From a bacterium (Candidatus Blackallbacteria) CG13_big_fil_rev_8_21_14_2_50_49_14 (GTDB taxonomy: Bacteria > Cyanobacteriota > Sericytochromatia > UBA7694): a stretch of DNA of 64,000 nucleotides. The notes beneath the pieces were generated by a model, which was given only the letters and a program-made list of their open reading frames with translations, made no database searches and was not told the origin of the DNA. Within the stretch, counting starts at the first letter, position 1; every line of letters begins with the position of its first letter. Below are positions 34,704 to 61,138 of the stretch, piece by piece. The position numbers were made by a program, and so were the translations under genes. Location of the stretch: assembly GCA_002783405.1 (NCBI GenBank), contig PFGG01000080.1:1-64000 (forward strand), read 5' to 3'.

Positions 34704-34728
34704 ACTGGAGTTTTAGAAGGTGGAAAGC

Positions 34729-37399: not shown

Positions 37400-37462
37400 A
37401 AGGTTTTTTCTGGAAATGTTGTGGATAGGCAAGGGCTTTCATCAGCTGAAAAGGACAAGGAA

Positions 37463-39271: not shown

Positions 39272-40925
39272 GCACAGTCAATATGCCAAGGTCTTGATCC
39301 TGGTCGGTCAAAATTTATGTTTCACCAGCCAGTGTTTTTTTCCTGTTTTGCAGACCCATCCAGATCTTGAAATTACGTTGTTTTTTCCGGGGGGCGCGCC
39401 TGCAGAAGAGGGGGCTGAGATGAAGACTCTGCTCAGCACCTATCGCTTGGCCAAGGGACGGCTTGGGGCTTATTCTGAACCTGATTTAAATTTTGAATTT
39501 CAGGTTTTAGCAGGTGAAGAGGCCGCTGAAGGGTTACAGGCTCAAGATTTTGAATACTTTCTGGCGATTCCAGAACAGATCAGCACTGATCCGCAGGGCC
39601 CTGAATTTGAAATACATCTTGATGATGCCGTGATCGAAGCTTTAGAAAGTCTGCAGGCTAAAAATTTTGAATTCAATGAAGACTTTTTGGAGGCAATGCT
39701 TCTTTCTGGAGCGTCGTTGACTGCCTTTTCTCTGAAAACCGATTTGGCCCTGTTAGAAACCTGGTTAGATCTTTGCCTGCAGGAACAGCCTTTGCCTGAT
39801 TTGACAGAAGCTGGAGCTTTGTCCTATCTGCGCAGTTTACAGGCGGTGCGCCCTTTGATTCCAGAGGCTTTTCAACTGGAGTCTTCCAAACTTCAGCGTT
39901 TGCTTCAGGCTGCGACGGCAGAACCTGGGCGAGAAGCCTGTCAAAGCCTCTTGCGTGTTTATGGCTGCCATGTGCTCTTGGGAAATGAAGTGTTTTCTTC
40001 TGAGGATAGAGACCTTGAAACACGGCTTTTTTATTGCCTGCCTCCCGCGAATCAGCGGGTGAAGCTTTGGCTTGTCGATGCGGATCTGAATCTCGACCTA
40101 CAGGCTTCGCTCTCCGCTTTGCTGCAGCAGAGCTATACCGATTGGCAATTGCATCTTGTTTCTGAACGGATAGAGCCTTTGCGCGCGCTTTTTCCAGATG
40201 AAAAGAGACTGATTTGGCACTCTTCACATGGGCTTGAGCCTTTGCCTGATGTGGCAGATGCCAGTTTTTGTGGGGTCTTGGCCGCTGGTGAAATTTGGCC
40301 TACAGATTATTTAGCTTCGGCCATCAGCCGTTTTACTGAAAAACCCTGGCTTGCTGCCGTTTGCAGTGGCTATGAAGGCAAGGGCTTACCCGCTGGTGTG
40401 GGGTTGCAATTTAACCCCTCCAATGCCGGCTTATTCGATTTAGAAACCGATCTGCCCAAGCTTTTTCTGAATTTTAGCTGTCCCTTTGGCACGATTTTCC
40501 GTACTGAAATGCTCAAACCCATGCATCTGAATCTTTTCAGGCCCGCTTGGGCTTTTCGTTTTGATCTGTGGAAAAATTTGCTGAGGGGATTTGAAATTGC
40601 GAAGTTGTCCCAGCCTTTGGTGAGGCTTGATCAGCGCTTGCTCAATCAATTTGCCTTGGAATTGATTCCCTTTCTCTTGGTTGCTTTGAAGCAGTATTTA
40701 AGGCTTTATGCGCTTTCAGGCCCTCAGCAGAGCCGCTTGCTTGAAGGCTTGAATATGCTGGCCCAGACCGTGATGTTTGATATCGGTCAGTTTTTTGATC
40801 ATGCGCTGGAAGAAGATTCTCTTGAACCCTATTTGGAAGAACGGCTTAAAATTTGGATTGCTTTTCAGGATTTAAAGTTTTTGCTTGTGCCGCCTCAAGC
40901 CTCAGAAGCGAGTGGCCAGGTTTGA
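39228..40925 (+). CDS. GT2-like protein lacking the DxD site, paralogue 3
   Basis: The frame is open from ATG 39228 (565 residues), within the end of the previous gene. The only strong Shine-Dalgarno (AGGAGG at 39252) sits nine bases before an ATT at 39267, so the true start is unclear. The N-terminal domain and helical C-terminus resemble the paralogues at 34729, 37463 and 57773. Alignment by context (LLQQSYTDWQLHLVSE) places GVLAAGEIWPTDYL where the paralogues have DDD or ADD. The acidic nucleotide-binding residues are therefore gone. It may be a non-catalytic partner of a paralogous transferase. Its end overlaps the convergent rmlC-like gene by 31 bp. Confidence 0.7.
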   Translation: MRKVPWASRRGISIKHSQYAKVLILVGQNLCFTSQCFFPVLQTHPDLEITLFFPGGAPAEEGAEMKTLLSTYRLAKGRLGAYSEPDLNFEFQVLAGEEAAEGLQAQDFEYFLAIPEQISTDPQGPEFEIHLDDAVIEALESLQAKNFEFNEDFLEAMLLSGASLTAFSLKTDLALLETWLDLCLQEQPLPDLTEAGALSYLRSLQAVRPLIPEAFQLESSKLQRLLQAATAEPGREACQSLLRVYGCHVLLGNEVFSSEDRDLETRLFYCLPPANQRVKLWLVDADLNLDLQASLSALLQQSYTDWQLHLVSERIEPLRALFPDEKRLIWHSSHGLEPLPDVADASFCGVLAAGEIWPTDYLASAISRFTEKPWLAAVCSGYEGKGLPAGVGLQFNPSNAGLFDLETDLPKLFLNFSCPFGTIFRTEMLKPMHLNLFRPAWAFRFDLWKNLLRGFEIAKLSQPLVRLDQRLLNQFALELIPFLLVALKQYLRLYALSGPQQSRLLEGLNMLAQTVMFDIGQFFDHALEEDSLEPYLEERLKIWIAFQDLKFLLVPPQASEASGQV

Positions 40926-41428
40926 TCCCGCTCTGAAAGCATGACCGGGGGCAAGGGCCATTGAATTCCAAACGCAGGATCATTCCAACGAACACCTGCA
41001 GCTGATTCGGGATGGTAAAATGCGCTCATTTGATAACTGAGCAGGCAGTGTTCAGAAAGGGTTTGAAAACCATGGGCAAAACCAGCGGGAATATACAAAC
41101 CCAGGTGATTCTCTGCGTTCAACTCAAAGGCCTGCCATTGTCCTTGGGTTGCTGAATCGGCTCTTAAATCCAGCAGAACATCGTAGATACTGCCTTGCAA
41201 GCAATACAAGAGTTTGATTTCTTGATGGGGTTCTTTTTGGTAGTGCATGCCCCGCAGCGTGCCTTTGTGCTGGTTAAACGAGAGATTGGACTGAACCCAA
41301 TCCGTATTCAGCCTTTGTTCAGAAAATTCTTTCTGACACCAAGTTCGGCCAAAAAAACCGCGTGAATCTTGAAGCAAACTGGGTTCGATCAAAAATACAC
41401 CAGACAAGGAGGTGGTGATAAATTTCAT
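40895..41428 (-). CDS. dTDP-4-dehydrorhamnose 3,5-epimerase-like sugar epimerase
   Basis: This 177-residue RmlC-family protein has DSRGFFGRTWCQKEF, NTDWVQSNLSFNQHKGTLRGMHYQ (the catalytic-His segment), GSIYDVLLDLR and GLYIPAGFAHGFQTLSE. It is the last gene of a four-gene operon with rfbF, rfbG and a sugar C-methyltransferase. It therefore probably epimerises a CDP-4-keto-6-deoxy sugar, with or without a methyl branch, rather than making dTDP-rhamnose. Its ATG overlaps the previous gene's stop as ATGA. Confidence 0.9.
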   Translation of the reverse strand: MKFITTSLSGVFLIEPSLLQDSRGFFGRTWCQKEFSEQRLNTDWVQSNLSFNQHKGTLRGMHYQKEPHQEIKLLYCLQGSIYDVLLDLRADSATQGQWQAFELNAENHLGLYIPAGFAHGFQTLSEHCLLSYQMSAFYHPESAAGVRWNDPAFGIQWPLPPVMLSERDQTWPLASEA

Positions 41429-42654
41429 GGATAAATTTCAAGCTTTGGAATGGGGACTACGAATTTTCCCTGCCATTCTCGGATAAAGGCCATCTGGGCC
41501 ATGATTTCTTCTTTCAGATTCCAGGGCAAAATCACCAGATAATCAGGGCGTGTGGCCCTAATTTGCTCGGGGGAACAGATGGGCAGATGGGTGCCTGGCA
41601 GATAATGCCCCTGCTTATTGGGATTGCGATCCACCGTATAGGCAATCAATTCCGGCCCGATACCACAGTAGTTCAAGAGGGTATTGCCCTTGGCGGGCGC
41701 GCCATAGCCCACCACCGATTGGCCTGACTGACGGGCCTGAATCAGAAAGTTGAGCAATTGGCATTTGACCTGAACCACCTGTTCGGCAAAACCAGTATAG
41801 GTGGCGAGTTGATCGAGCCCATAGGCCTTCTCAAGACTTAAAACCCTGTCGATCTGCTCACTGTAGGGGCGTTCTGAAGCCTGGGCATGCTGAACGTAAA
41901 TGCGCAAGGAACCCCCATGGGTAGGCAAGGTTTCAACCTCAAAAATAGAGAGTTGATGGGCTGCAAAGATTTTTTGAACGGTGAGAAGTGAGAAATAAGA
42001 GAAATGCTCATGGTAAATCGTATCGAACTGATTCAATTGCATCAATTGCAGCAAATGGGGGAACTCAAGAGTGATCACCCCTGCTGGTTTCAGAATCAGT
42101 TTTAAGCCTGCGATAAAATCATTCAGATCAGGCACATGGGCCAAGACATTATTGCCCACAATTAAATCGGCTGGAGAATCCTGTTGCAGTTCTTGGGCGG
42201 TTTGGGTTCCAAAAAAACGATTCAAGGTGGGAATGCCTTTTTCACGGGCCACGGCTGCGATATTTTGCGCGGGTTCAATGCCCAGGATGGGGATCTGACG
42301 TGCTTTAAAATATTGCAGCAGATAGCCATCGTTGCTGGCGATTTCAATCACCAGACTCGTTTCATTCAACTTCAGTTTTTCACAGATCATCTCAGTATAG
42401 CGTTGGGCGTGATTGAGCCAGGTTTCTGAATAGGAAGAAAAATAGGCGTAATGGCTGAAAATATTTTCAGGGCTTTCAAACTGCGCCAGCTGCACCAAAA
42501 AACATTGGGGGCAAACATAGGCATGAAGGGGAAAGAAGGCTTCCATGCGTTGAAGGTCTTGGGGAGCTAGATAGGCATTGGAAAGTGGCGACATGCCCAG
42601 ATCCACGAAGCTTGTGGTCAAGGGGGTCTTGCAAAAGCGGCAATCAAGGCTCAT
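41425..42654 (-). CDS. Nucleotide-sugar C-methyltransferase (TylCIII/NovU type)
   Basis: The ATG at 42654 overlaps the rfbG stop as ATGA, giving 409 residues. The N-terminal zinc-binding part has CRFC (residues 5-8) and CPQC. The SAM domain has VIEIASNDGYLLQYF and IVGNNVLAHVPDL. The C-terminal domain has VVGYGAPAKGNTLLNY followed by VDRNPNKQGHYLPGT. This three-part layout is that of sugar C-methyltransferases, which put a methyl on C3 of 4-keto-6-deoxy sugars. With rfbF and rfbG upstream, the product is probably a CDP-linked branched deoxysugar. The C-terminal domain is the one that recurs in the radical SAM operon downstream. Confidence 0.9.
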   Translation of the reverse strand: MSLDCRFCKTPLTTSFVDLGMSPLSNAYLAPQDLQRMEAFFPLHAYVCPQCFLVQLAQFESPENIFSHYAYFSSYSETWLNHAQRYTEMICEKLKLNETSLVIEIASNDGYLLQYFKARQIPILGIEPAQNIAAVAREKGIPTLNRFFGTQTAQELQQDSPADLIVGNNVLAHVPDLNDFIAGLKLILKPAGVITLEFPHLLQLMQLNQFDTIYHEHFSYFSLLTVQKIFAAHQLSIFEVETLPTHGGSLRIYVQHAQASERPYSEQIDRVLSLEKAYGLDQLATYTGFAEQVVQVKCQLLNFLIQARQSGQSVVGYGAPAKGNTLLNYCGIGPELIAYTVDRNPNKQGHYLPGTHLPICSPEQIRATRPDYLVILPWNLKEEIMAQMAFIREWQGKFVVPIPKLEIYP

Positions 42655-43736
42655 GAGTTTGCGCTTACCCTTTTTTGATATTTTTGAATTTGATTTTCTG
42701 TCAATTCTCGCATATTCCCACCTGCTTGATGGGCCTGATGCCATTCCATGATCCAGGCCAGGGTTTCTTCGATTTCTAATTGGGGAGTCCAGCCCAATTG
42801 CGTACGGGCTTTGCTGCTGTCTAATTGTAAAAAGGCGGCTTCATGGGGTTGGGGGCCTTTTGCCAGAATCACTTCGGCCTCAGGTTGGTATTTTTGCAGT
42901 TCTTGCACAATCCAACCTACGGTTTGGGTCTTTTCGGGGGCGGGCCCAAAATTCCAGGCCCCATTAAACAGGGGGCCTTGCTGCCAGAGTTTTTCAATCA
43001 GGCGCAAATAGCCCTGTAGGGGCTCCAGCACAAATTGCCAGGGCCGGCAGGCCTCAGGATGGCGGATGACGAGGGCTTGTTTTTGACGCATGGCTGCGAG
43101 AATATCTGGAATCAGGCGCTCGGGAGACCAGTCGCCTCCGCCAATCACGTTTCCGGCCCGCGCGCTGGCAATCGCCAGACCGTGTTCTGTATAGCGATCC
43201 GCATGAAAAAAGGAATCGCGGTAGGAGGCGGTTACCAATTCAGAGCAGGCTTTGCTGGCCGAGTAGGGATCATGCCCCCCCAAGGGATGGTTTTCTTGAA
43301 AAGCATGGGTTTGGCCTGTGTTTTCGTAGCATTTATCTGTGGTGATGTTTAATACCACGCGAATGCCCGGTGTGGCGCGAATCGCCTCCAAGAGATGTAC
43401 CGTTCCCATGATATTGGTGGCAAAGGTTTCCTGTGGGAATTGGTAAGAGGGGCGAACCAAGGCCTGGGCTGCCATGTGAATCACGATTTCAGGTTGGGCG
43501 TTTTGCAGGGCTTGCTGAAGTTCTGAAGGATTGCGGATATCTCCGCTGATCGACTGAAGATCCTGCTCAAGCTGTAAGAGTTCAAATAAATTGGGGTTTG
43601 TGGCAGGAGGGAGTGCGAAGCCGGTTATCTTTGCCCCCAAGAAACTGAGCCACAAGGATAGCCAAGCGCCTTTAAAGCCGGTTTGGCCTGTTAAAAAGAC
43701 TTTTTTACCTGACCAGAAGAGGGGATCATAAAACAC
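42651..43736 (-). CDS. rfbG: CDP-glucose 4,6-dehydratase
   Basis: This 361-residue extended SDR starts at GTG 43736. It matches RfbG: KKVFLTGQTGFKGAWLSLWL, AAQALVRPSYQFPQETFATNI, TTDKCYEN and the catalytic YSASK in HDPYSASKACSELV. It converts CDP-glucose to CDP-4-keto-6-deoxyglucose using bound NAD. rfbF lies just upstream and the C-methyltransferase is coupled downstream. Confidence 0.94.
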   Translation of the reverse strand: MFYDPLFWSGKKVFLTGQTGFKGAWLSLWLSFLGAKITGFALPPATNPNLFELLQLEQDLQSISGDIRNPSELQQALQNAQPEIVIHMAAQALVRPSYQFPQETFATNIMGTVHLLEAIRATPGIRVVLNITTDKCYENTGQTHAFQENHPLGGHDPYSASKACSELVTASYRDSFFHADRYTEHGLAIASARAGNVIGGGDWSPERLIPDILAAMRQKQALVIRHPEACRPWQFVLEPLQGYLRLIEKLWQQGPLFNGAWNFGPAPEKTQTVGWIVQELQKYQPEAEVILAKGPQPHEAAFLQLDSSKARTQLGWTPQLEIEETLAWIMEWHQAHQAGGNMRELTENQIQKYQKRVSANS

Positions 43737-43742: not shown

Positions 43743-44519
43743 TTAATGCTCCCAAACTTTCCATTGCGCTTGGCCCGAGGTCCAGAGATCTTCGAGCATG
43801 ATTTTATCGCGCAGGGTATCCATGGGTTTCCAGAAACCACGGTGCTTGAAGGCTTCAAGTTCGCCTCTTTGGGCCAGCTCAGCCAAAACCTGGCTTTCCC
43901 AGCTGCTGTGATCCCCTTCAATCAGATCCAGTACGGAGGGAGATAAAATAAAGAAGCCGCCATTGATCCAGGTGCCATCCCCCTGTGGTTTTTCCACAAA
44001 ACAGGTGACCTGGCTTTCATGGAGGTTGAGCGCACCAAAACGTCCAGGGGGCTGAACTGCTGTGAGAGTGGCTTGCTTCCCATGCTGTTGATGAAATTGA
44101 TAAAGATCCTGGATATTGATATCTGAAAGGCCGTCGCCATAGGTAAAACAAAAGCTTTCTTCTTCTTTGAGAAAAGCCTGTACGCGTTTGAGACGCCCGC
44201 CGGTATTGGTATCCATACCAGTATCTACCAGGGTTACGCGCCAGGGCTCGACATATTTTTGGTGAACTTCCATGTGGTTATTGACCATATCAAAGGTCAC
44301 ATCTGACATATGTAAAAAATAGTTGGCGAAATATTCTTTGATAAGATAGCCCTTATAGCCACAGCAGATAATAAACTCATTGATTCCGTAATGGGAATAG
44401 AGCTTTAAAATATGCCATAAAATAGGCTTGCCACCGATTTCGATCATGGGCTTGGGTTTTAAATGCGTCTCTTCGGTGATGCGCGTGCCAAGACCGCCCG
44501 CTAAAATAACAGCTTTCAT
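43743..44519 (-). CDS. rfbF: Glucose-1-phosphate cytidylyltransferase
   Basis: This 258-residue protein has the signature MKAVILAGGLGTRITEET, then KPKPMIEIGGKPILWHI and FIICCGYKGYLIKEYF, with FCFTYGDGLSDI as the Mg-binding site. It makes CDP-glucose from CTP and glucose-1-phosphate, the entry step for CDP-deoxysugars. It is the first gene of a minus-strand operon (rfbF, rfbG, C-methyltransferase, RmlC-like). No rfbH-type dehydrase is seen in the window, so the 3,6-dideoxy branch is not indicated. Confidence 0.94.
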   Translation of the reverse strand: MKAVILAGGLGTRITEETHLKPKPMIEIGGKPILWHILKLYSHYGINEFIICCGYKGYLIKEYFANYFLHMSDVTFDMVNNHMEVHQKYVEPWRVTLVDTGMDTNTGGRLKRVQAFLKEEESFCFTYGDGLSDINIQDLYQFHQQHGKQATLTAVQPPGRFGALNLHESQVTCFVEKPQGDGTWINGGFFILSPSVLDLIEGDHSSWESQVLAELAQRGELEAFKHRGFWKPMDTLRDKIMLEDLWTSGQAQWKVWEH

Positions 44520-44833: not shown

Positions 44834-46135
44834 GTGAATAATACGGTCTTGAATACCCCCCCTGTCTCCAAATGGCTGAAGCCTCAAAATTTAATCGACC
44901 TGATTGCCGGTCGTAAGGTCTATATCTGGGGGGCGCGTCATGATGGTTATGCCGTTCGTTTGGCGTTGAGCCGCTATGGTATCAATGCCACCAGCTTTAT
45001 TGACAGTTCTTTGGCTTTGAAAGGCACTTCTGCTTTTGGTTTGGTGATTGAGAGTCCCGATCAGTTTTTTGGAACGGAGTCGGCTGAAGATGCCTTTGTG
45101 ATTATTGCTTCAGGTTTCTTTGCCGATGAAATTTCGCAAATTTGTGAAAGCAAAGGCTTCAGAAAAGAACAGGATTACGTGATTTACCGTGAGCTGCGCC
45201 GTTTCAATTACCAGGTTGAAGTGACGGGTTACTGTAATCTTACCTGTATTTCCTGCCCGCGCGGCAATTGGCCGCGCCATCGTCCGACAGGTTTAATGAA
45301 TACTGAAACCTACAGTAAACTGCTCGATAAAATTATAGAAGACGATCCCTGGACCGGTATTATCACCCTGTATAATTGGGGTGAACCCCTGCTCAACCCC
45401 GATTTGCCCGAGATTATCCGCACGACACGTGAAAAAGGCCTGCTCTCTGCTGTATCCAGCAATCTGGCCATGAAAAAAGATTTTGAAAACGTCATTCAAG
45501 CCGATCCCACCTGGTTCCGTATTTCGAATTCAGGTTGGGGCGAAAACTATGAAAAAACCCATACGGGTGGTAAATGGGATGTTTTCTTGGCCAATTGCTA
45601 TAAATTGGCTGAGTACCGTAAAAAGCACAATTCTCAAATGTTGGTTGAGCTGTTTTTCCATATTTACTCACACAACCGTGAAGACTTCCCCAAAATGCAG
45701 GCCCTCTGTGATGAGTTGGGCTTTACCCTGCGCTATCGCCATGCCGCCCTGGCTCCACTTGACAATATTGCCTTGGTGATTGAAGGTTCAGAAACCTCCA
45801 AAGCGGCGCAAAAAACCCGCGATATCCAATTTCTGCATGTGGAAGAAGTTATGGGCATGGCCCGTGCTGAGCGCGATCGTCCTTGCTATTATATGGACCA
45901 TCTTTGGATTGATTGGAATCTCTCTGTCGCACATTGCATGGAGTGGTATGATCCTTCGCTTGTTTTGTTTGACAATTTTATGGATATTTCTCTGGATCAG
46001 ATTACCCCTGCAAGGGTGAACAGTCAGCATTGCCAATCGTGTATGGAAAAAGGCATTCATCGGGCCTATACGGTTTATGCCGATGAAAAATTGATTACGG
46101 CAAAATCCAGTATTCCTGTACAGAAAGAAGATTGA
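44834..46135 (+). CDS. Radical SAM/SPASM-type enzyme with N-terminal Rossmann-like module (1 of 3)
   Basis: This 433-residue protein starts at GTG. Residues about 25-115 form a Rossmann-like module (VYIWGARHDGYAVRLAL, FIDSSLALKGTSAFG) resembling the C-terminal domain of sugar C-methyltransferases. The radical SAM core follows with Cys134, Cys138 and Cys141 (GYCNLTCISCPRG), the site of the 4Fe-4S cluster that cleaves SAM. GEPLLNPDLPEI lies in the core. A short SPASM/twitch-like end has CQSCMEKGIHR. The genes at 46141 and 47389 are full-length paralogues. The reaction is unknown; cytoplasmic modification of a nucleotide- or lipid-linked sugar is likely from context. Confidence 0.85.
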   Translation: MNNTVLNTPPVSKWLKPQNLIDLIAGRKVYIWGARHDGYAVRLALSRYGINATSFIDSSLALKGTSAFGLVIESPDQFFGTESAEDAFVIIASGFFADEISQICESKGFRKEQDYVIYRELRRFNYQVEVTGYCNLTCISCPRGNWPRHRPTGLMNTETYSKLLDKIIEDDPWTGIITLYNWGEPLLNPDLPEIIRTTREKGLLSAVSSNLAMKKDFENVIQADPTWFRISNSGWGENYEKTHTGGKWDVFLANCYKLAEYRKKHNSQMLVELFFHIYSHNREDFPKMQALCDELGFTLRYRHAALAPLDNIALVIEGSETSKAAQKTRDIQFLHVEEVMGMARAERDRPCYYMDHLWIDWNLSVAHCMEWYDPSLVLFDNFMDISLDQITPARVNSQHCQSCMEKGIHRAYTVYADEKLITAKSSIPVQKED

Positions 46136-46140
46136 ATCCT

Positions 46141-47385
46141 ATGCTCAGTATTCAGGAGCTTCGCGAACTGTGTGCCCAAAAAAAGATTTATTTATGGGGA
46201 GCAATGATTGTTGGGCAGGGGGTCTGCCGTTCGCTGGAGCGAATTGGCGTTCCTGTTGAGGCTTTTCTTGACAGCTCTCCCTCGCTCCAGGGGCAAAAGG
46301 CTCTGGGGTATCCGATTTGTAAACCCGACTCTGTTTTTGATTCTGTGCGTTCTGGAGAAGGTCTGATTATTATTTCTTCGGGACACCATGATTTGGAAAT
46401 TGCACAGCTCTGCGAACAGGCAGGCCTGAGTAAAAATCGTGATTTCATCCTTTCAAAGCAAAGCCTGAATGACCTCGACCCCAGTGTCGAAGTGACGGGC
46501 ATGTGTAATTTGCAGTGCATTTCCTGCCCTCGGGGCAATGACAATGAACCCCAGCCCAAAGGGTTTATGAGCGCAGAAACTTACCGTTTGGTGCTTGAAA
46601 AACTTTTGCGTGAAATTCCCCTTTTGGGCAGTGTTCAGCTTTATACCTGGGGTGAGCCCCTGCTCAACAAGGAATTGCCTGAAATTATTGCGATGACGCG
46701 TGAAGCCAAGGTTTTAACTGCAATCTCTTCAAATTTGAACTATGTCAAAAACCTTGAGCACGTGATTGCAGCCAAACCTGATTGGTTCAAAGTTTCCTGC
46801 TCTGGCTGGGAAGACAGCTATGAAATTACGCATACCGGTGGCAAATGGAATAAATTCTACCCGAATTTACATACACTGGCAGCCTTGCGCGATCAGCATC
46901 ATCCAGAAATGCATATTACGCTCAGTTACCATCTCTATAAGCACAATCTTGACGATGATTATAAAAAAATGGAAGCGCTTTGCGAGAAGCTCAACCTGAT
47001 TTTTCGCCCCAGCCCTGCGTATCTTTATCCCATGGATACGGTCCGCGATTTTGTCGATGGCAACCCCATTTCGGCGCAGGCCACCCGTACCCTGCCGCTT
47101 CTGATGATGGATCTCAATGAGGGCATTGCCAAAGCCCGTGAGCGTAAGCATTTGCCCTGCCCTGAAGAGAGATGCCTGCCGATTGATTGGGATGGCCGTG
47201 TGCGCGCCTGTGGCGTGTATTTCCGCCCTTATGTGGTGAATCAGTTCTTGGAAACGCCCTTGGCAGAAATCGTGGGTTCTGAAAAGAAAAAACAGCTGTG
47301 TGCAGAGTGTATTGGGCGTGGTATTCATCAATTTACCAGTGTGTACCTGCCAGAACAAAGAATTCAAGTAGCAACGGTATCTTAA
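46141..47385 (+). CDS. Radical SAM/SPASM-type enzyme with N-terminal Rossmann-like module (2 of 3)
   Basis: The ATG at 46141 lies 5 bp after the previous stop, giving 414 residues. The Rossmann-like module is KIYLWGAMIVGQGVCRSL with AFLDSSPSLQGQKALG. The cluster cysteines are 122, 126 and 129 (GMCNLQCISCPRG). It shares with its neighbours the segments TWGEPLLNKELPEI, SSNLNYVKN and YEITHTGGKW. The C-terminal part has RACGVYF and CAECIGRGIH, which may bind an auxiliary cluster or zinc. Tandem duplication is the simplest origin. Each copy may act on a different sugar or position. Confidence 0.85.
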   Translation: MLSIQELRELCAQKKIYLWGAMIVGQGVCRSLERIGVPVEAFLDSSPSLQGQKALGYPICKPDSVFDSVRSGEGLIIISSGHHDLEIAQLCEQAGLSKNRDFILSKQSLNDLDPSVEVTGMCNLQCISCPRGNDNEPQPKGFMSAETYRLVLEKLLREIPLLGSVQLYTWGEPLLNKELPEIIAMTREAKVLTAISSNLNYVKNLEHVIAAKPDWFKVSCSGWEDSYEITHTGGKWNKFYPNLHTLAALRDQHHPEMHITLSYHLYKHNLDDDYKKMEALCEKLNLIFRPSPAYLYPMDTVRDFVDGNPISAQATRTLPLLMMDLNEGIAKARERKHLPCPEERCLPIDWDGRVRACGVYFRPYVVNQFLETPLAEIVGSEKKKQLCAECIGRGIHQFTSVYLPEQRIQVATVS

Positions 47386-47388
47386 ACG

Positions 47389-48657
47389 ATGTCTCATGCC
47401 TCTTTGAGCAATCCTTTGGCGCTTTTAAACCAGGCTTTAAAAGAAGGCCGGCAAATCATGATCTATGGCGCTGGCAGTCAAGGGCGTGGTTTGCTGCGGG
47501 CCCTGCGTGAAAATGGCTTGGATGCCGTGGCCTTTATTGACCGCAACCCTGATATTCAGGGCAAAATTCTCAGTGGTATTCCCGTTCAGGGCCTGTCTGT
47601 ACTCGAACCCCCCGAAGCCAAAGCCGAATTGATGGTCTTGGTGGCCGCTTTTTTCTTTGAGCGTGAAGTGGCTGATTATCTTGAAGGCATTGGTTTTGAG
47701 CAGAATAAAAACTTTATTCTTTACAGCACGCTCAAACCCCGTGATTATGTGGTGGAAATTGTCGATGTCTGCAATCTGCGCTGTATTTCCTGCCCGCGGG
47801 CAGATCGTGCTCCGGGCCGGGCCAGCAATAAAATGATGGATTTGGAGACCTTTAAACAGGTCATTGCCAAAATCAGACGCGAAGAGCCTTTTGTTGGCAA
47901 TATTCAGCTTTATCAGTGGGGAGAACCCACCCTTAATAAGCAGCTGCCTGAGATGATTTGTCATGCGCGTGAAAACGGCATTCTTTGCTCGCTTTCGAGC
48001 AATCTCAATTATGTGGCTGATTTTAAAGCACTGATTGAAGCCCGACCAGAATGCCTGCGTTTGTCTGCGTCAGGTACTGAAGCCAATTATGAAATTACAC
48101 ATACCGGTGGCAAATGGAAAAATTTCCTTGCCAATGTCGAGACTATTGGCTGGTTGCGCCGTGAAATTCATCCTGAGATGAAAGTAGAGCTCTATTACCA
48201 CCGCTATAAGCACAGCCTGGGTGAGCAGCAGCAGCAGTTTATTGCTGATTTGTGCAAACGCCTGGATTTTGAGTTTCACCCTGTGCCCGCTTATATTATT
48301 TCGCTTGACGATGTTTTGGCCTATTGTGAGGGGACACCTTTGCCCCCCAGTGCTCAAGAGGCCCGGAAACATCTGGTGATTGATCTGGATGAGGGGTTGG
48401 CCTATGCCCGTCAGGAGGCCGACCTGGAATGTGATTCCTTGCGCGTGATTCAGGTCAATGCCGACCTTTCGATGTCAGCCTGCATGATGTTTTACAATGC
48501 GGAAAACAATACGATTACCGACAATTACCTTGAACATTCCCTGCCTGAAATTATTGAAGAGCGCGAAAAAGTTCTTTTTTGTGAGCGCTGTAAAAAACAG
48601 GGCATGCACCGCTATTGTGCAACCTACGCCAAATTGAGTGAGCGGATACGCTATTGA
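47389..48657 (+). CDS. Radical SAM/SPASM-type enzyme with N-terminal Rossmann-like module (3 of 3)
   Basis: This is a 422-residue third copy. The Rossmann-like module has the clearest dinucleotide-fold motif of the three (IMIYGAGSQGRGLLRAL, then AFIDRNPDIQGKILSG). The cluster cysteines are 128, 132 and 135 (VCNLRCISCPRAD). Shared segments include QWGEPTLNKQLPEM, SSNLNYVAD and YEITHTGGKWKNF. The C-terminus has CERCKKQGMHRYC. The stop overlaps the start of the GT4 gene as TTGA, so the set is translationally coupled to a glycosyltransferase. Confidence 0.85.
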   Translation: MSHASLSNPLALLNQALKEGRQIMIYGAGSQGRGLLRALRENGLDAVAFIDRNPDIQGKILSGIPVQGLSVLEPPEAKAELMVLVAAFFFEREVADYLEGIGFEQNKNFILYSTLKPRDYVVEIVDVCNLRCISCPRADRAPGRASNKMMDLETFKQVIAKIRREEPFVGNIQLYQWGEPTLNKQLPEMICHARENGILCSLSSNLNYVADFKALIEARPECLRLSASGTEANYEITHTGGKWKNFLANVETIGWLRREIHPEMKVELYYHRYKHSLGEQQQQFIADLCKRLDFEFHPVPAYIISLDDVLAYCEGTPLPPSAQEARKHLVIDLDEGLAYARQEADLECDSLRVIQVNADLSMSACMMFYNAENNTITDNYLEHSLPEIIEEREKVLFCERCKKQGMHRYCATYAKLSERIRY

Positions 48658-49994
48658 AAACTTCCTTGCCCAGGGTTTTGCATCTGCTGCCCCATACCGG
48701 GGGAGGGGTGGGGACGGTTCTCAGGGCTTTTTTTAAAGCCGAAATGGAGACGGGGCGTTATACGCATTCGGTTATTACCTTTGAAACCATCAATGAGGCC
48801 AGCAAAACCTGTTTTAAACAATTGAATATGGCTTGGCTGGAAACGGCTGATGATGCCGCAATTGCAGCGGGAATCGAAGCCGCCGAGCTTGTGGTTTTGC
48901 ACTGGTGGAACCACCCGCAATGGATGCGGATATTGTCTCAAGGTCTGCCTGCCTGTCGTTTGGCGATTTGGTCTCACGTCAATGGCTTTCATACGCCCCA
49001 AGCCTTTTTCCCTGAACTCTTTGATTTCCCCGATCGCTTTGTCTTTGCGACACCGGCTTCGTTTGAGGCCCCCGTGGTCAAAGCCTTGACGCCTGCCCAG
49101 GCCTCTCAATTGGCCGTGATTGTCAGCAATTCTGGGGTGCCCCCCGGAGCTGATAAATTTTGTCATAAAACCAGTCCCTTTCAGGCCGGTTATATTGGTA
49201 CGGTTGAACCGGCTAAAATGCATCCTGAATTTCTGAGCATGTGCGCCCGCGCCCAATTGGCTTTGCCCTGTCTGGTGGCAGGCGGGCCTGCACATCAGGC
49301 TTTACAGGCCAAAGCCGAGCAAAGTGGGCTGGCGCAGCAATTTAAGATTTTGGGGCCTTTGTCTGATCCCTATGCTTTTTTTCAAGGTTTGCATGTTTTG
49401 ACCTATCCGCTTGTGCCCGAGCATTATGGTACAGGAGAACAGGTCTTGATCGAAGCCATGGCCTATGGGGCTGTGCCCTTGGTTTTGGCCCATCCACCTG
49501 AAAAAGCTTTGATTCAGAACATGGAAACCGGCATTTTGGCGGAGAGTCCTGAGGCGTTTTCAGAGGCCCTGCGTTTCTTGGCTGAGCATCCCGCCGAGCG
49601 CGAACGCATGGCTTTGGCGGGGCATCGCTTTGTGCTTGAAAATTGCCCGATTGAAAAAACGCAGAGCCAGTTTCATCAGCTTTTTGAAACCTTGCTGGGC
49701 TTGTCGAAACAGTCTCGAAAATTGGCCTTGCCTGAGTTTAATGGCGTTGAAAGGGGCAGCCCGTTTCATCTCTATTTAACCGCTTGTGGAGACTCGCCTG
49801 AGCGTTCTGCGGCTTTGGATTTTTTGGCTGAAAAGGATGAGCCTGAAAAAGTTTGGCCTCCATCTTTTGTCTATTTAACCCGTGGCTCACCTGTGCATTA
49901 TTTAAACCTGCTGGGGGCAGATCCTGTGCTGGAAAGAATGCGCGATCGCTTTGTGTCGAGGCCCGAATTGGCTTCGTTTGGTGCGAGATCCTGA
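48654..49994 (+). CDS. GT4-type glycosyltransferase
   Basis: This 446-residue GT-B enzyme starts at a TTG overlapping the previous stop. The N-terminal domain opens with VLHLLPHTGGGVGTVLRAFF, the usual glycine-rich acceptor-side loop. The C-terminal domain has AGYIGTVEPAKMHPEFLSM, CLVAGGPA, and HYGTGEQVLIEAMAYGAVPLVL, which contains the conserved donor-binding Glu residues of GT4. The enzyme transfers a sugar from a nucleotide donor. It lies between the radical SAM trio and four methyltransferase genes in the same operon, linking those enzymes to glycan assembly. Confidence 0.85.
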   Translation: MKTSLPRVLHLLPHTGGGVGTVLRAFFKAEMETGRYTHSVITFETINEASKTCFKQLNMAWLETADDAAIAAGIEAAELVVLHWWNHPQWMRILSQGLPACRLAIWSHVNGFHTPQAFFPELFDFPDRFVFATPASFEAPVVKALTPAQASQLAVIVSNSGVPPGADKFCHKTSPFQAGYIGTVEPAKMHPEFLSMCARAQLALPCLVAGGPAHQALQAKAEQSGLAQQFKILGPLSDPYAFFQGLHVLTYPLVPEHYGTGEQVLIEAMAYGAVPLVLAHPPEKALIQNMETGILAESPEAFSEALRFLAEHPAERERMALAGHRFVLENCPIEKTQSQFHQLFETLLGLSKQSRKLALPEFNGVERGSPFHLYLTACGDSPERSAALDFLAEKDEPEKVWPPSFVYLTRGSPVHYLNLLGADPVLERMRDRFVSRPELASFGARS

Positions 49995-50049
49995 ATCTGA
50001 TATGATGAAGACTGATTTCGTAAAACATCACAGCTCGGAGATCCCCTTC

Positions 50050-50844
50050 ATGGATGACCATCCTGATTTTCTTGCGGCACGCCGTCAGCGCATCGCAGAT
50101 TATGCCCAGAATCAAAAGCTTTTGACTGCAGCCGATACGTTTTTGGTAGAGAGCATCGATGCTTCCTATTCCTATAATTTTGATTGGTTGGGCTTGCCGA
50201 TTATTCAGTATCCCCAGGATTTGGTGGTTCTTCAGGAGCTGATTTGGCGGATACGCCCCGACTGTATTATTGAAACAGGTGTCGCCCGAGGCGGGTCTTT
50301 GGTTTTTTATGCCTCCATGCTTGAACTCTTGGGGCAAAAGGGCAAGGTCATTGGCATCGATATTGATATTCGAGAGCACAATAAAAAACGCATTTTAGAA
50401 CATCCTCTGGCGCGTCGGATTCAGATGGTCGAGGGTTCCAGTATTGATGCGGAAACACTTGAGCAGGTACGCGGTTTGGTCGGAAACGCCCAAAAAATTA
50501 TGGTCTGTCTGGATTCCAACCACACCCATGAACATGTCCTCAAAGAGCTCGAACTCTATGCGCCCTTTGTCAGCCCTGGCTCCTATTGCGTGGTCTTTGA
50601 TACGATTATTGAAATGATGCCCTCGGGCTATTATCAAGATCGTCCCTGGAATAAGGGGAATAGCCCTGACAGCGCGATTCAGACCTATTTGCAGGCTTTA
50701 AATGCTTCTGATGCACGGGGCGTGGATCAGGCGCCGCTTTCTTTTGAGATCGATCAGGCGATTGATGCGCAAATACTCGTCAGTGTCTGCCGTGGGGGGT
50801 ATTTACGCCGACGCTCCGTCTCTTCACCGGAAATGCCTGAGTAA
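50050..50844 (+). CDS. CmcI/rhamnosyl O-methyltransferase-family protein
   Basis: The frame opens at 49951, but the ATG at 50050, nine bases after GGAG, gives 264 residues. It has the CmcI-type SAM fold: CIIETGVARGGSLVFYASML, KVIGIDIDIREHN, IMVCLDSNHTHEHVLKEL and YCVVFDTIIE. The D, H and E residues near these strands form the metal site in characterised relatives, which methylate rhamnose in glycopeptidolipids or modify cephalosporins. In this operon an O-methyltransferase for a glycan sugar is the most likely role. Confidence 0.83.
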   Translation: MDDHPDFLAARRQRIADYAQNQKLLTAADTFLVESIDASYSYNFDWLGLPIIQYPQDLVVLQELIWRIRPDCIIETGVARGGSLVFYASMLELLGQKGKVIGIDIDIREHNKKRILEHPLARRIQMVEGSSIDAETLEQVRGLVGNAQKIMVCLDSNHTHEHVLKELELYAPFVSPGSYCVVFDTIIEMMPSGYYQDRPWNKGNSPDSAIQTYLQALNASDARGVDQAPLSFEIDQAIDAQILVSVCRGGYLRRRSVSSPEMPE

Positions 50845-50849: not shown

Positions 50850-52004
50850 ATGCTGGCAACACGTCTTTCCTACCGAGCTTGTCCCGTCTGTGAACAACAT
50901 CAAACCCAGCTTTTGGGGCATTTGAATTATGCCCTTTTTGATGATTTGGATTTGCCGATTAGGAAAAGTGCCAGCGGCTGTTTAAACTGTGGCATGATTT
51001 TTGATGATTTGGAGCTGACAGAGCGTCAGTTGGCCCATTACTATGCGCAAAATGAGCACTATGCGCTTGCCGTTCAAGGCGGTGCAGGGGGCTACAGTGA
51101 CGCCAATCAGGCCCGTTACCAACGGATTTTAACCGCGCTTGAACCTCTTTCTCAGGGCGCGATTCTTGATTTCGGCTGTGGTCAAGGCGGTTTTGTCCGC
51201 TATTGCCAGGCACAGGGCTATCATGCGATTGGGCTGGAGCCTTCTTTGAGCAGCCGCCAGGTCGGGCAGACCTCTGAACTGCAAATTTTTGCCTCGCTTG
51301 AAGATATTCAAAAGGCCTATTCAGGGGCTGCCATTGGCGCGGTGGTCATGTCGCATGTGCTTGAGCATTTATTGCATCCCCTTGAGCAATTGCAGCAATT
51401 GTCCCAATGGGCGACTCAGGCCCGATTTTATCTGGAAGTGCCTGATGCCACAGCCTATCTGAGCCGTGAAACCATGCGTTGGAATGAATTGTATTTTGAA
51501 CATATTGCCCATTTTTCTCCCTTTCACTTGGCCTTGTTGGCCCAACGTGCTGGTTTGCAAGTTCAGACAGAAGGAATCGTGCCCTTTTCTGAAATTCAGG
51601 CTGAATCGCAATGCGCTTATTTGGTTGCTCAAGCGCTTGAGCCGAACAGGCTTGAATCGGAAACGATTGAAATTGTGAAACATCTGAATTGGCCTGCTGA
51701 AATACTTCAGGTGCCAGAGCCTGAGCTTTCGGCGGGGCGTCCTGTCGTTTTGTGGGGGCTTTCGCAGTATGCTCTCTTGCTTTTGGGCAGTTGTCCCGGC
51801 CTAAGTGCTGTCAGCCGTTTGTTTGACAGTTCCCCAGCCAAGCAGGGCAGGCGTATTCGGGGCCTTGAAATCGAGCCGCCGGAGCGGATTGCTGCTTTAC
51901 CCGCAGAGACTTTGCTTGTTTTGCCTTTTTCCCTCAGTCAGCAACAGATGAAGCGGATTTTGAAACAGGACTATTCCTTTGCGGGGGAAGTGCTTGAGGT
52001 TTGA
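50850..52004 (+). CDS. SAM methyltransferase with zinc N-terminus and C-terminal Rossmann-like module
   Basis: This 384-residue protein has a zinc-binding start (CPVCEQHQ and CLNCGMIF). A Methyltransf_23-like SAM domain follows (AILDFGCGQGGFVRYC, GLEPS, VMSHVLEHLLHPLEQL). The C-terminal module has PVVLWGLSQYALLLL and LFDSSPAKQGRRIRGLEI. The layout parallels the sugar C-methyltransferase at 41425, and the end module matches the N-terminal module of the three radical SAM proteins. It is probably a second sugar methyltransferase with a different substrate. It starts 5 bp after the previous stop. Confidence 0.83.
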   Translation: MLATRLSYRACPVCEQHQTQLLGHLNYALFDDLDLPIRKSASGCLNCGMIFDDLELTERQLAHYYAQNEHYALAVQGGAGGYSDANQARYQRILTALEPLSQGAILDFGCGQGGFVRYCQAQGYHAIGLEPSLSSRQVGQTSELQIFASLEDIQKAYSGAAIGAVVMSHVLEHLLHPLEQLQQLSQWATQARFYLEVPDATAYLSRETMRWNELYFEHIAHFSPFHLALLAQRAGLQVQTEGIVPFSEIQAESQCAYLVAQALEPNRLESETIEIVKHLNWPAEILQVPEPELSAGRPVVLWGLSQYALLLLGSCPGLSAVSRLFDSSPAKQGRRIRGLEIEPPERIAALPAETLLVLPFSLSQQQMKRILKQDYSFAGEVLEV

Positions 52005-52080: not shown

Positions 52081-52797
52081 GTGAAAACGTTGAATTTGCC
52101 AGAGGTTGAAGAGAAATGCTTCGAGCGTTTGGTGCGTCTGATTGGGAGGCTCAATCTTTCTCATCCCCTGATCTTTGACGTGGGGGCCAATATCGGGCAA
52201 AGCATTGATAAATTCAGAGGCGCGTGGCCTGATGCTTCGATTCATTGTTTTGAAGCAAACCCTTCTGTTTTTCAATACCTGCACACCCAATACGCCGCTG
52301 AAAAAGATCTGTATTTTAACCCCGTTGCTTTGTCTGAGCGTATCGGTGAACTTTCTTTCTTCGCGACACGGGTGGCTGAAGTCTCTTCGCTTTTATCACC
52401 CACCCAGCGCATGCAGAATCTGAGCGTTGAGCATAAATATGATTATGAAGAAATTACCGTTCCCTCAGAAACCTTGGACCATTACTGTGAAACCCAGCAT
52501 ATTTCCCGGATTGACCTGCTTAAAATAGATGTGCAGGGCGCTGAACTCTCAGTACTTAAAGGCGCGCAGGGCTTGCTTTCAGCTGGAGCTGTCTCGATGA
52601 TTTATTTAGAGACTACATTTGCAGACTGTTATGAAAATCAAACCCTGTTTACGGATTTATTGGTGTATTTGTCTCAGGTTGGTGAAGGCTATGAACTTTG
52701 GGATATTGCGCCTTTTCTCTATACCGGGCGCGATCAGCTCTGGGCTGCAAATTCTATTTTTCTTTCCAAATCCATTGCTGGAGAACTTTTGAAGTAG
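52081..52797 (+). CDS. FkbM-family methyltransferase
   Basis: This 238-residue protein starts at GTG 52081 after AAAGGA. The FkbM signature is complete: LIFDVGANIGQSIDKF (SAM motif I), IHCFEANPSVFQYL, and IDLLKIDVQGAELSVLKGA. FkbM proteins are O-methyltransferases common in exopolysaccharide and lipopolysaccharide loci. It lies directly upstream of a second FkbM gene that carries the extra Rossmann-like module. Confidence 0.88.
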   Translation: MKTLNLPEVEEKCFERLVRLIGRLNLSHPLIFDVGANIGQSIDKFRGAWPDASIHCFEANPSVFQYLHTQYAAEKDLYFNPVALSERIGELSFFATRVAEVSSLLSPTQRMQNLSVEHKYDYEEITVPSETLDHYCETQHISRIDLLKIDVQGAELSVLKGAQGLLSAGAVSMIYLETTFADCYENQTLFTDLLVYLSQVGEGYELWDIAPFLYTGRDQLWAANSIFLSKSIAGELLK

Positions 52798-52805: not shown

Positions 52806-53924
52806 ATGAATAAAAACGAAACTTCTTACTGGCCCGAAATTCAAGCCTGGGTAGACTCCCTGCAAACGGATTATCAGCAGATAGCCAATTTAGCGTCTGG
52901 GGGTCTGGCGCTTTTTGGCGCAGGCTCCGTGGGGCATGATGCTGTCAATTATTTGCTTTCACGCAAAATTCCAGTGCAGTGTTTTATTGACAATGCCCCT
53001 GAAAAGCAGGGCACTGAGATCCAGGGAGTGCCTGTGGTGGCCTTGCAGGACCCGGAGGCTGCTTCAGCGGCTTTTATTCTGATCACGACCAAGACCCTGC
53101 CTCAAGAAGTGCGCCTGCAATTGGAAAAACAAGAACGTCATTTTATGACCTTTAATGCCTTTTATGTCATGGATAATTTTGCGCGTTATACGCGCTTGCG
53201 CGATCAGGTCTTTCAAGATCAGGGGTCTCAGGTCACCCTGGCAGGTCTGATGATGGCCATGCTCAGTAATTCCACGCAATATTGCGCGGAAATTATGGAT
53301 TATAATCAGTATTTCTGTTTGCCCCATTTTCTCAATACAGACGATACCTTTGTGGATGCCGGCGCCTTTGTCGGCGATACCGCTGAAAAGTATATCTGGC
53401 ACAATACGGGCATGTTCCGCCATTTGTATTTGTTTGAGCCAGGGCCGAAACAGTTTCAGGCTCTGGAAACGCGAATGAAGCGATTGGTCGCTGAATGGGC
53501 CCTTGAACCCCATAAAATTTCGATGGTCAAGGCGGGTCTTTCGAACGCCGATGGTTGGGCCTCTTTTTCTTCTCATCAGATCAAACCCGCTGCGTCTACT
53601 TTTAGCTCGCACCAGATGTTAGATTCTGAAACCCTCGACAATGTGCAGATTTACAGCTTGGACTCCTATTTTGAACAGCATCCGCCGGCTTCACCTGTCA
53701 GTTTTATTAAAACAGATACCGAAGGAATGGAGCTGATGCTTTTGGATGGTGCCAAGCAAACGATTTTGAAATACAAACCCAAATTGGCTTTGAGCACCTA
53801 CCATCGGATTGGGGATCTGTTTGCGATTACTGAAAAAATAAAGACCTGGGTGCCTGAATACCAAGTGGCACTGCGCCATCATTCCCCTAATTTGGCTGAA
53901 ACGGTGCTTTATTTTTGGATTTGA
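52806..53924 (+). CDS. FkbM methyltransferase with N-terminal Rossmann-like module
   Basis: This is a 372-residue protein. Residues about 30-115 form the Rossmann-like module (LALFGAGSVGHDAVNYLL, CFIDNAPEKQGTEIQG) seen in the radical SAM proteins of this operon. Residues about 175-370 are an FkbM domain (TFVDAGAFVGDTAEKY, LYLFEPGPKQFQAL, VSFIKTDTEGMELMLLDGA). The fusion suggests that the module recruits these catalytic domains to a common ligand or partner. It is the last gene of the operon that starts at 44834. No strong terminator follows. Confidence 0.85.
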   Translation: MNKNETSYWPEIQAWVDSLQTDYQQIANLASGGLALFGAGSVGHDAVNYLLSRKIPVQCFIDNAPEKQGTEIQGVPVVALQDPEAASAAFILITTKTLPQEVRLQLEKQERHFMTFNAFYVMDNFARYTRLRDQVFQDQGSQVTLAGLMMAMLSNSTQYCAEIMDYNQYFCLPHFLNTDDTFVDAGAFVGDTAEKYIWHNTGMFRHLYLFEPGPKQFQALETRMKRLVAEWALEPHKISMVKAGLSNADGWASFSSHQIKPAASTFSSHQMLDSETLDNVQIYSLDSYFEQHPPASPVSFIKTDTEGMELMLLDGAKQTILKYKPKLALSTYHRIGDLFAITEKIKTWVPEYQVALRHHSPNLAETVLYFWI

Positions 53925-54061: not shown

Positions 54062-56047
54062 ATGACTGTTCAAACCCCCGATAAACCCTCTACAAAAACC
54101 TTGAATTATCTGTTGGTAATGCCGCGTTTGGTAAGAAGTGTAAAGGACAGTTATGGTTTTCCCTTGGGCATTGCCTATGTTTCTGCCAGCATGAAAAAAG
54201 CCGGACTCAATGTCAGTACATTGAATCTGAATCAAAGCGATGGCAAAGTGTATGATCTGCTGAAAGAAAAAATTGAAGCGGATCAGATTGATGTGGTTTT
54301 GACAGGGGGGCTTTCCGCTGAATACTGTATGATTCGTACGGTGATTGAGAGTGCAAAGCATATCAACCCCAAAATTTATACGGTGGTTGGGGGCGGGATC
54401 ATCACCAGTGATCCTGAAACTGCGATGGAAGCCCTTGAATACGCTGATTTTGGCGTGATTGGAGAGGGGGAATTGACCAGCGTTGAATTGGGGCGCACCC
54501 TCGAAAATTGGGGGGACTTTGGCAGCGTCGATGGTTTGATTTATAAATCAGGTTCTTTTCCCAGCAGTACTGAATTAAAGCCTCTTTTCGCCGAGTCGAA
54601 ATTTGTCAGAACCAAAGATCGCAAAGTGATTGATGATTTGGATTCAATTCCCTGGCCCGATTATGAAGGTTTCGAAATGGAAAAATACCTGGCGGCTACG
54701 CTGGGCACCTTTGGTTTTAATGGTACAAATACCCTCTCGATGGTCACCTGCCGTTCCTGCCCATTTGGCTGTACCTTCTGTTTTCATACCGTAGGTAGAA
54801 AACACCGTACCCGTTCTTTGGATGATTTTTTCAAGGAATTGGATTACTATGTTTCAAAATACAAGATCAACAGTTTGGCTCTGTCTGATGACCTTTTTGG
54901 GATTCAGTTTGAACGTCTGAAAGAGTTCTGTGAGCGCATCAAGGATTATAATATCAGCTGGTTAGGCGCTTTTCGTCTGAACCAGGTCAACCCAGAAATG
55001 TTGGCTTTGCTGAAAGAAAGCAATTGTGCGATTATGGGCTTTGGCCTTGAAAGTGCCGACAACCGTATTCTCAAAAGCATGAAAAAAGGCATTACGATTG
55101 AGCAGGCGGAAGAAAGTCTGAAGATGGTTTATGATTCAGGCATTTCAATTTCTGCGGGTCTGATCATTGGCGATATTGAAGAAACGCTTGAAACTGCCAA
55201 TGTCTCTTTTCAATGGTGGAAAGAGCATCCTGAGTACTGTCTGCCGGTACGTTTGATCACCCCCTATCCTGGTGCGATGATCTATCACTATGCCTGTAAT
55301 ACGGGCTTAATCAAGGACAAGGTGCAATATCTGCGCGATGGCTGTCCGCAAATTAATATTTCGAAAATGACAGATAAAGAGTTTCAGGATTTTACCCGGC
55401 AAATTATGGAAGCGGCGGTAGAGGGGATTCTTCCTCTTTCATCCTTTGAAATGTCGAAGATTGATGATGAAAGTGGCTGTATTGATCTGAACGGCACCTG
55501 CAGTAAATGTGGGCATGAAAATCAATGGGAAAAGGTGCGCCTGTTTAAGATTACCTTTGTTTCCTGCCACCAATGTGGACAGCAGTTTTTTCCCCCTCTT
55601 AATGCGGATATTCGACAGAATATTGATCGAAATGTTCAGAAAATTATTGATAGATACGGCAAGGTGGGGGTTTGGGGCATGACCATTCATGCCATTGATG
55701 TCTTTTCAACCTCGGATGTTTTGAAGGCTCAAGAGATTTACCCGATTGATATCTGCAGCAGCAAGCAGCACGATAATTTCTTCGGCAAACAGATTCATGC
55801 ACCCCATATTATTGCGCAGGAAGATATTCAGACGGTGATTATTTCGGCACCCAATCATATCGGCTATATTGAATCTCAGATTGAGACCAATTATCGCCAT
55901 GTTACCAAGGTGATCGATATTTCCAATCTGATCGGCACTTCCTTCGACTTTTTAGGGCCAGAACTGCCGCAAATGTTGCCCAATCCCAACCATGTTTTAC
56001 ATTTGGAGCAGCAGGCTCTATTGAGGGGACGTGCTGAATCCCGTTAG
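54062..56047 (+). CDS. B12-binding-domain radical SAM enzyme with zinc ribbon and Rossmann-like C-terminus
   Basis: This 661-residue protein has four parts. Residues about 15-145 form a cobalamin-binding-type domain (FPLGIAYVSASMKKAG, VVGGGIITSDPETAMEAL). The radical SAM core at about 220-440 has Cys233, Cys237 and Cys240 (SCPFGCTFCFH). A zinc ribbon follows (CSKCGHENQ, CHQCGQQF). Residues about 535-640 form a Rossmann-like module (VGVWGMTIHAIDVF, IDICSSKQHDNFFGKQI), which I relate to the module in the preceding operon. B12 radical SAM enzymes commonly methylate unactivated carbon or rearrange rings. AAGGA precedes the ATG. The target is unknown. Confidence 0.83.
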   Translation: MTVQTPDKPSTKTLNYLLVMPRLVRSVKDSYGFPLGIAYVSASMKKAGLNVSTLNLNQSDGKVYDLLKEKIEADQIDVVLTGGLSAEYCMIRTVIESAKHINPKIYTVVGGGIITSDPETAMEALEYADFGVIGEGELTSVELGRTLENWGDFGSVDGLIYKSGSFPSSTELKPLFAESKFVRTKDRKVIDDLDSIPWPDYEGFEMEKYLAATLGTFGFNGTNTLSMVTCRSCPFGCTFCFHTVGRKHRTRSLDDFFKELDYYVSKYKINSLALSDDLFGIQFERLKEFCERIKDYNISWLGAFRLNQVNPEMLALLKESNCAIMGFGLESADNRILKSMKKGITIEQAEESLKMVYDSGISISAGLIIGDIEETLETANVSFQWWKEHPEYCLPVRLITPYPGAMIYHYACNTGLIKDKVQYLRDGCPQINISKMTDKEFQDFTRQIMEAAVEGILPLSSFEMSKIDDESGCIDLNGTCSKCGHENQWEKVRLFKITFVSCHQCGQQFFPPLNADIRQNIDRNVQKIIDRYGKVGVWGMTIHAIDVFSTSDVLKAQEIYPIDICSSKQHDNFFGKQIHAPHIIAQEDIQTVIISAPNHIGYIESQIETNYRHVTKVIDISNLIGTSFDFLGPELPQMLPNPNHVLHLEQQALLRGRAESR

Positions 56048-56168: not shown

Positions 56169-56253
56169 TCCATCTTATAGGGGCCCCGCCCCTGACTTCT
56201 GTTTTACATGATCCTGATATGTTCGACGCTTTTAGCTAAGAAGGGAAATGAAA

Positions 56254-57760: not shown

Positions 57761-57796
57761 GCCCAAGTCTTCTCAATAACGAAGGCTTGGGCTTTT
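57761..57796 (+). terminator. Rho-independent terminator of the second B12-radical SAM gene
   Basis: GCCCAAGTCTTC (57761-57772) pairs with GAAGGCTTGGGC (57781-57792) with one G-T wobble and an eight-base loop, followed by TTTTGTATT. It lies 16 bp after the stop. The convergent gene's stop codon falls in the loop. Confidence 0.88.
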
Positions 57797-61135: not shown

Positions 61136-61138
61136 CTT

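Follow-up and report, generated by a model that had tools for sequence, protein, structure and literature searches.

Three co-inherited twitch-type radical SAM enzymes in a horizontally spread glycan cassette: candidate editors of one CDP-linked 6-deoxysugar

Why would a bacterium keep three full-length radical S-adenosylmethionine (SAM) genes side by side, immediately upstream of a glycosyltransferase gene? The question is raised by contig PFGG01000080.1 (assembly GCA_002783405.1) of Candidatus Blackallbacteria CG13_big_fil_rev_8_21_14_2_50_49_14, whose positions 1 to 64,000 constitute the window analysed here, and in which the three genes, termed rA, rB and rC, lie in tandem on the forward strand (Table 1). 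The answer proposed in this report, to which we attach a probability of roughly 45%, is that they encode three competent twitch-type radical SAM enzymes which modify a single cytidine diphosphate (CDP)-linked 6-deoxysugar at different positions before its transfer by the GT4 glycosyltransferase, and that the triplet would form the constant centre of a mobile cassette making and transferring one unusual CDP-derived 6-deoxysugar.

The three open reading frames (ORFs) are intact and encode paralogues that share 34-40% pairwise identity, the other two being 40% and 34% identical to rA. The frame of rB is already open from TTG 46132 (46132-47385, 417 aa), and the ATG at 46141 is the probable start because it better fits the rB orthologues. 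The radical SAM cysteines C134, C138 and C141 (CX3CX2C), the WGEP motif and the THTGGKW segment are invariant across the three proteins, as are C351, C368, C400 and C403, and the start of the GT4 gene overlaps the stop of rC by 4 nt. A preliminary description of the window had reported the consecutive paralogues, their motifs and the overlap, all of which hold; it had also noted the C-terminal CxxC, which is present, and had overlooked C351 and C368, which complement it to form a four-cysteine, twitch-like auxiliary-cluster site. Since four C-terminal cysteines are conserved, a twitch domain holding a single auxiliary cluster is predicted for the C-terminal part; of the earlier radical SAM/SPASM label the radical SAM part stands, while the SPASM profile (PF13186; two auxiliary clusters, at least seven cysteines) had no match, only four C-terminal cysteines being conserved in all clades. 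The three radical SAM and four twitch cysteines are retained in 50 of the 50 aligned A, B, C and X proteins, giving the twitch pattern at the sequence level in each, and WGEP is kept in at least 95%. Catalytic competence of rA, rB and rC is thus well supported by motif conservation, and a search of the genome revealed no fourth copy.

Curated models assign these proteins to the radical SAM superfamily (PF04055 and CX3CX2C), rB falling 2.5 bits below the gathering score with all motifs kept, and the only further Pfam match, a weak one, is that of PF08484 to rC. Among NCBIfam models the highest score is that of TIGR04317 (W_rSAM_matur), which is also the best curated profile for 69 of 69 family members, but its 49-57 bits lie far below the cutoff of 380; NF033640 (N_Twi_rSAM) scores 17-23 bits against a curated cutoff of 170. 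Judged by these scores, the triplet is not covered by any curated family, and no described family with this architecture was found in the open-access literature searched, in agreement with the initial failure to recognise a characterised enzyme.

Are the three copies interchangeable? Maximum-likelihood analysis of 53 proteins, drawn from 17 loci, resolves A, B and C as three monophyletic clades (support 100/100, 100/99 and 100/99), and the tandem position of a gene matches its clade. Each window copy shares 64-69% identity with its orthologues from other phyla, against 34-40% among the three window copies themselves, and the pairwise distance matrices of the three clades correlate at 0.92-0.93, a value reached by 0 of 2000 permutations in a Mantel test. 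The triplet therefore moves as one block, in which each member has a fixed role that differs from those of the other two. Each clade also has conserved residues of its own, located after the sixth strand of the barrel and around the auxiliary site (RHAALAPL and CMEW in A; AYLY and RC.PI.W in B; AY.ISLDDVL and H.YC in C), which, together with the retention of all cysteines, is what would be expected of three distinct, non-redundant enzymes. Clade C, for instance, has a Cys of its own at alignment columns 216 and 429. Distinct roles for rA, rB and rC are accordingly well supported from sequence, as had been suggested on the basis of their clear divergence, whereas the tandem triplication itself is, by the evidence of the tree, not local but old and horizontally spread; a recent local duplication was rejected, each copy being nearer to its orthologues elsewhere than to its neighbours.

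A scan of one genome per species in 84,980 species yielded 42 loci, of which L008-L030 contain this family and 15 of these the ordered triplet, with hosts in Desulfobacterota, Gammaproteobacteria (Thiorhodococcus, Allochromatium, Competibacteraceae, Methylococcaceae), Mariprofundus, Syntrophus and unclassified delta-proteobacteria. Thiorhodococcus minor DSM 11518 and Allochromatium warmingii DSM 173 are culturable carriers. A fourth copy sits between A and B in three triplet loci (L019, L020 and L022). Among 395 sampled genomes from the phylum of genome G389, four carry the family, all with the full set and one of them new (G624); among 399 from the phylum of G391, two have the full set and three a single, more distant copy. 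The ordered rA-rB-rC-GT4 set is found in 17 loci from several phyla, 16 besides the window. Within the phylum of the window, the triplet is present in one of 386 sampled genomes, namely the window genome itself, which therefore probably gained it horizontally. Contamination or misassembly is unlikely, since a stretch of the same contig some 4-10 kb beyond the window is up to 81% identical to a congeneric genome; this match and the recurrence of the triplet in 16 other loci rule out a chance or assembly effect.

The genes around the triplet point to a sugar pathway. The conserved order is RfbF-RfbG-RmlC-(C-methyltransferase)-SDR-(FkbM)-rA-rB-rC-GT4-MT23-B12rSAM-FkbM-CmcI, where SDR denotes a short-chain dehydrogenase/reductase and B12rSAM a B12-binding radical SAM enzyme, and its downstream part varies. 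In each of the 17 triplet loci the gene immediately after rC is GT4, and a B12-radical-SAM gene is inserted between rB and rC in L010. In the window, RfbF, RfbG, RmlC and the C-methyltransferase are encoded divergently, on the minus strand, with the SDR gene 8 kb upstream. Both equivalogs of the CDP-6-deoxysugar route, RfbF and RfbG, score above their cutoffs, and no RfbH 3-dehydrase was seen in the conserved order, two DegT-family genes of the window (28201-30698) being left untyped. Two single-copy, more distant relatives also occur in sugar clusters, one (L084) beside RfbF, RfbG, a DegT-family aminotransferase gene and a B12-radical-SAM gene, the other (L085) beside a thiamine pyrophosphate (TPP) enzyme, and both with an SDR, a haloacid dehalogenase (HAD) phosphatase and a second radical SAM gene; these were counted towards a sugar substrate for the triplet. 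A role of the triplet in a sugar pathway is well supported by this synteny, and the coupling of the radical enzymes to a glycosyltransferase in a glycan locus, proposed in the preliminary description, is supported. The notion of one glycan as the target can be narrowed: because the conserved cassette has one nucleotide-sugar route and one conserved glycosyltransferase, its tailoring enzymes probably all act on a single sugar, which would be a CDP-linked 6-deoxyhexose. A mycinose-like 6-deoxyallose was considered and dropped, since no support for it came from papers; moreover, the 3-epimerase of the allose pathway is less similar to the RmlC-like protein than 3,5-epimerases are.

How might such a sugar be held? 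A profile built from the N-terminal Rossmann-like module of the triplet and iteratively extended, with E-values that refer to a small search set, recovers the module on as many as seven proteins of the window, which belong to four catalytic classes. Its position is N-terminal in rA, rB, rC and one FkbM methyltransferase, and C-terminal in the class I methyltransferase, in the C-methyltransferase with PF08484 and, as a weak match, in the first B12-radical-SAM enzyme, whose orthologues in L021 and L087 give a stronger match. The module is thus not particular to the radical enzymes. Relatives show the same pattern, which in L009 extends to a HAD-type protein and to additional, divergent radical SAM proteins. 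An artefact in which any Rossmann fold would match was rejected, there being no matches in shuffled proteins or in the SDRs or alcohol dehydrogenase of the window. Of 114 copies, 113 keep an Asp that follows the second strand (Asp57 in rA). Among solved or curated domains, those closest to the module are 3nkl, Rex, VioB, PglD_N and PF08484, the last scoring 25.5 bits (cutoff 23.5) against the rC module alone and PglD_N remaining below cutoff, with weak matches in 10 of 24 modules. In PglD-type enzymes the N-terminal domain is a platform for uridine diphosphate (UDP), two Asp contacting ribose and uracil (PMC8040287). At the position of the second Asp, most window copies of the module have Ser, Arg or Asn, a loss that would, speculatively, fit a base other than uracil. 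By homology, the module is a putative nucleotide-sugar handle common to several cassette enzymes.

Known systems share some of these traits. BtrN, a 2-deoxy-scyllo-inosamine dehydrogenase, resembles rA, rB and rC in its CX3CX2C core, single four-cysteine auxiliary cluster and carbohydrate-like substrate (predicted for the triplet), and matches the triplet in sequence (5e-07, over the core only) and by Foldseek; unlike them it has no Rossmann module, is encoded by a single gene in an antibiotic cluster and has about 250 residues. Its four-cysteine cluster goes with two-electron oxidation (PMC9012708). AlphaFold2 models of rA and rC (mean pLDDT 95.4 and 93.5) have BlsE, sactipeptide maturases, anSME, BtrN, EpeE, DesII and viperin as Foldseek neighbours, at the superfamily level only. 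DesII acts on a nucleotide sugar linked to thymidine diphosphate, BlsE on a cytosine nucleoside and EpeE on a peptide; all three share the superfamily fold but differ from the triplet in their low identity (11-17%), their other auxiliary domains and the lack of a tandem set and of the shared module. The tungsten cofactor oxidoreductase maturase of TIGR04317, although the closest curated profile, lacks the module and belongs to protein maturation. The C-terminal domain of the nucleoside diphosphate (NDP)-sugar C-methyltransferases (PF08421-PF13489-PF08484), one of which is in the window cassette, is homologous to the module, but their catalysis is methyl transfer and not radical SAM chemistry. 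PglD, NeuD and VioB acetyltransferases have the N-terminal module fold with the conserved Asp after strand 2 (PMC8040287), fused to a left-handed beta-helix acetyltransferase rather than to a radical SAM domain. What is new, compared with known radical SAM sugar chemistry, is that three such enzymes are conserved as a set and that a handle module is shared with other enzymes of the cassette.

The competence motifs, orthologous clades, co-inheritance, synteny and shared module come directly from computation; from them we infer a CDP-linked substrate, an order of steps and an oxidation or epimerisation chemistry. RfbF would form CDP-glucose, RfbG would convert it to CDP-4-keto-6-deoxyglucose, and the RmlC-like epimerase and the SDR would set the stereochemistry and reduce C4. 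Each of rA, rB and rC would then hold the CDP-sugar through its Rossmann-like module, the invariant Asp lying on the ribose, and take a different ring hydrogen with the 5′-deoxyadenosyl radical, while the single auxiliary [4Fe-4S] cluster would accept or return an electron, the outcome being oxidation of an alcohol to a ketone, as in BtrN, or epimerisation. Methyl groups would be added by the module-bearing methyltransferases and the B12-radical-SAM enzyme before GT4 transfers the finished sugar. Extended to the whole cassette, this amounts to a tentative picture of an assembly line that has spread horizontally and has not been described before: one nucleotide-sugar handle domain may serve enzymes from at least four catalytic classes (three twitch radical SAM enzymes, B12-radical SAM, FkbM, and class I/C-methyltransferases), and at least three successive radical edits of one CDP-6-deoxysugar may yield a new, heavily modified surface monosaccharide.

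Several observations weigh against this pathway. The per-sequence PglD_N-like matches are weak, and the module could bind another ligand or a partner protein, given that the NAD-binding relative Rex also matches; the structural matches do not go beyond the superfamily (TM about 0.45 by query, root-mean-square deviation 5-13), L018 and L023 carry other gene combinations, and no member of the family has a known reaction. FkbM and CmcI methyltransferases, moreover, often act on finished glycans, and their presence in the cassette means that the pathway could run after transfer. In that case the same enzymes and sugar would be involved, with the radical steps following GT4 on a lipid-linked or polymeric glycan and the module recognising the acceptor or carrier, an arrangement also suggested by the overlap of rC with GT4 in the window and their constant adjacency elsewhere. 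The likeness of the module to nucleotide-sugar domains, including that of NDP-sugar C-methyltransferases, and the singleton relative adjoining CDP-sugar genes speak for action before transfer, and we consider the later timing unlikely, though it is the alternative to be taken most seriously.

Strict co-inheritance and tandem order would also suit a single hetero-complex of rA, rB and rC performing one reaction, two copies being structural or electron-transfer partners. This is improbable, as none of the three has lost WGEP or any radical SAM or auxiliary cysteine, and single-copy, two-copy and four-copy variants exist. A ribosomal peptide or protein as substrate, modified as by maturases of ribosomally synthesised and post-translationally modified peptides or of metalloenzymes, is hinted at by the tungsten-oxidoreductase maturase model and by the sactipeptide maturases among the fold neighbours; with scores so far below the maturase cutoffs, sugar genes as neighbours and no conserved small ORF that could encode a precursor in the 17 cassettes searched, it was rejected as very improbable. 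Practically no credence is given to redundant copies kept for dosage or left by recent local amplification, which the tandem arrangement alone would favour and which the tree, the greater identity to orthologues in other phyla and the clade-specific residues contradict. Distinct editing of one CDP-linked sugar before transfer is therefore the reading we prefer.

Table 1. Predicted genes of the cassette in the window (module E-values refer to the small search set)
Feature	Coordinates	Strand	Evidence or remark
rA, Rossmann-module, radical SAM and twitch enzyme, clade A, 433 aa	44834..46135	+	
rB, architecture as rA, clade B, 414 aa from ATG 46141	46141..47385	+	
rC, architecture as rA, clade C, 422 aa	47389..48657	+	
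GT4 glycosyltransferase, conserved C-terminal tail, 446 aa	48654..49994	+	Pfam PF00534 1.8e-15
CmcI/rhamnosyl O-methyltransferase-like	49951..50844	+	PF04989 2.2e-79; 8 cassette loci
Class I methyltransferase, N-terminal CxxC pairs, C-terminal shared module (293-373)	50850..52004	+	PF13489; module E 1.3e-15
FkbM O-methyltransferase	52081..52797	+	PF05050/TIGR01444; kept in 9 loci
FkbM methyltransferase with N-terminal shared module (33-110)	52806..53924	+	Profile searches
B12-binding radical SAM, weak C-terminal module (534-608)	54062..56047	+	Module E 0.002
Second B12-binding radical SAM, conserved downstream partner	56248..57744	+	Nearest solved structure by sequence AprD4
RfbF, glucose-1-phosphate cytidylyltransferase	43743..44519	-	TIGR02623 470 bits, cutoff 300
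RfbG, CDP-glucose 4,6-dehydratase	42651..43736	-	TIGR02622 473 bits, cutoff 278
NDP-sugar C-methyltransferase, C-terminal domain is the shared module (336-418)	41425..42744	-	PF08421/PF13489/PF08484; optional in cassette
RmlC-like 3,5-epimerase	40895..41428	-	TIGR01221 183.5 bits, cutoff 155.75; PDB RmlC
SDR epimerase/4-ketoreductase	36548..37399	+	Adjoins rA in most relatives

Further features were observed in and around these cassettes. In L009 (10056-13697), two more module-bearing radical SAM genes and one SPASM radical SAM gene follow the triplet, bringing the cassette to six radical SAM genes. Elsewhere in the window, a split transketolase-type TPP enzyme pair (30559-32327) lies beside the two DegT aminotransferases (28201-30698) and may introduce a carbon branch into a different sugar made by the locus; in three large GT2 proteins of related layout (34720-36468, 37421-39271 and 57773-59572) the GT2 domain is preceded by about 260 N-terminal residues of unassigned sequence; and a heptose-like set (59622-62524) comprises an SIS isomerase, an NAD-dependent epimerase and an HldE-like fusion with the cytidylyltransferase-like domain first. 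Rfam, tRNA and promoter scans added nothing.

To our knowledge, few radical SAM enzymes act on sugars, and most of these work alone in antibiotic pathways. If the proposed pathway is correct, successive radical editing of one sugar, by the triplet and its B12-radical-SAM partners in surface-glycan cassettes of several phyla, would be a general bacterial strategy. The order of the cassette and the shared module lead to a testable substrate prediction, a CDP-6-deoxyhexose, and the module itself would provide a marker for finding further enzymes of this kind.

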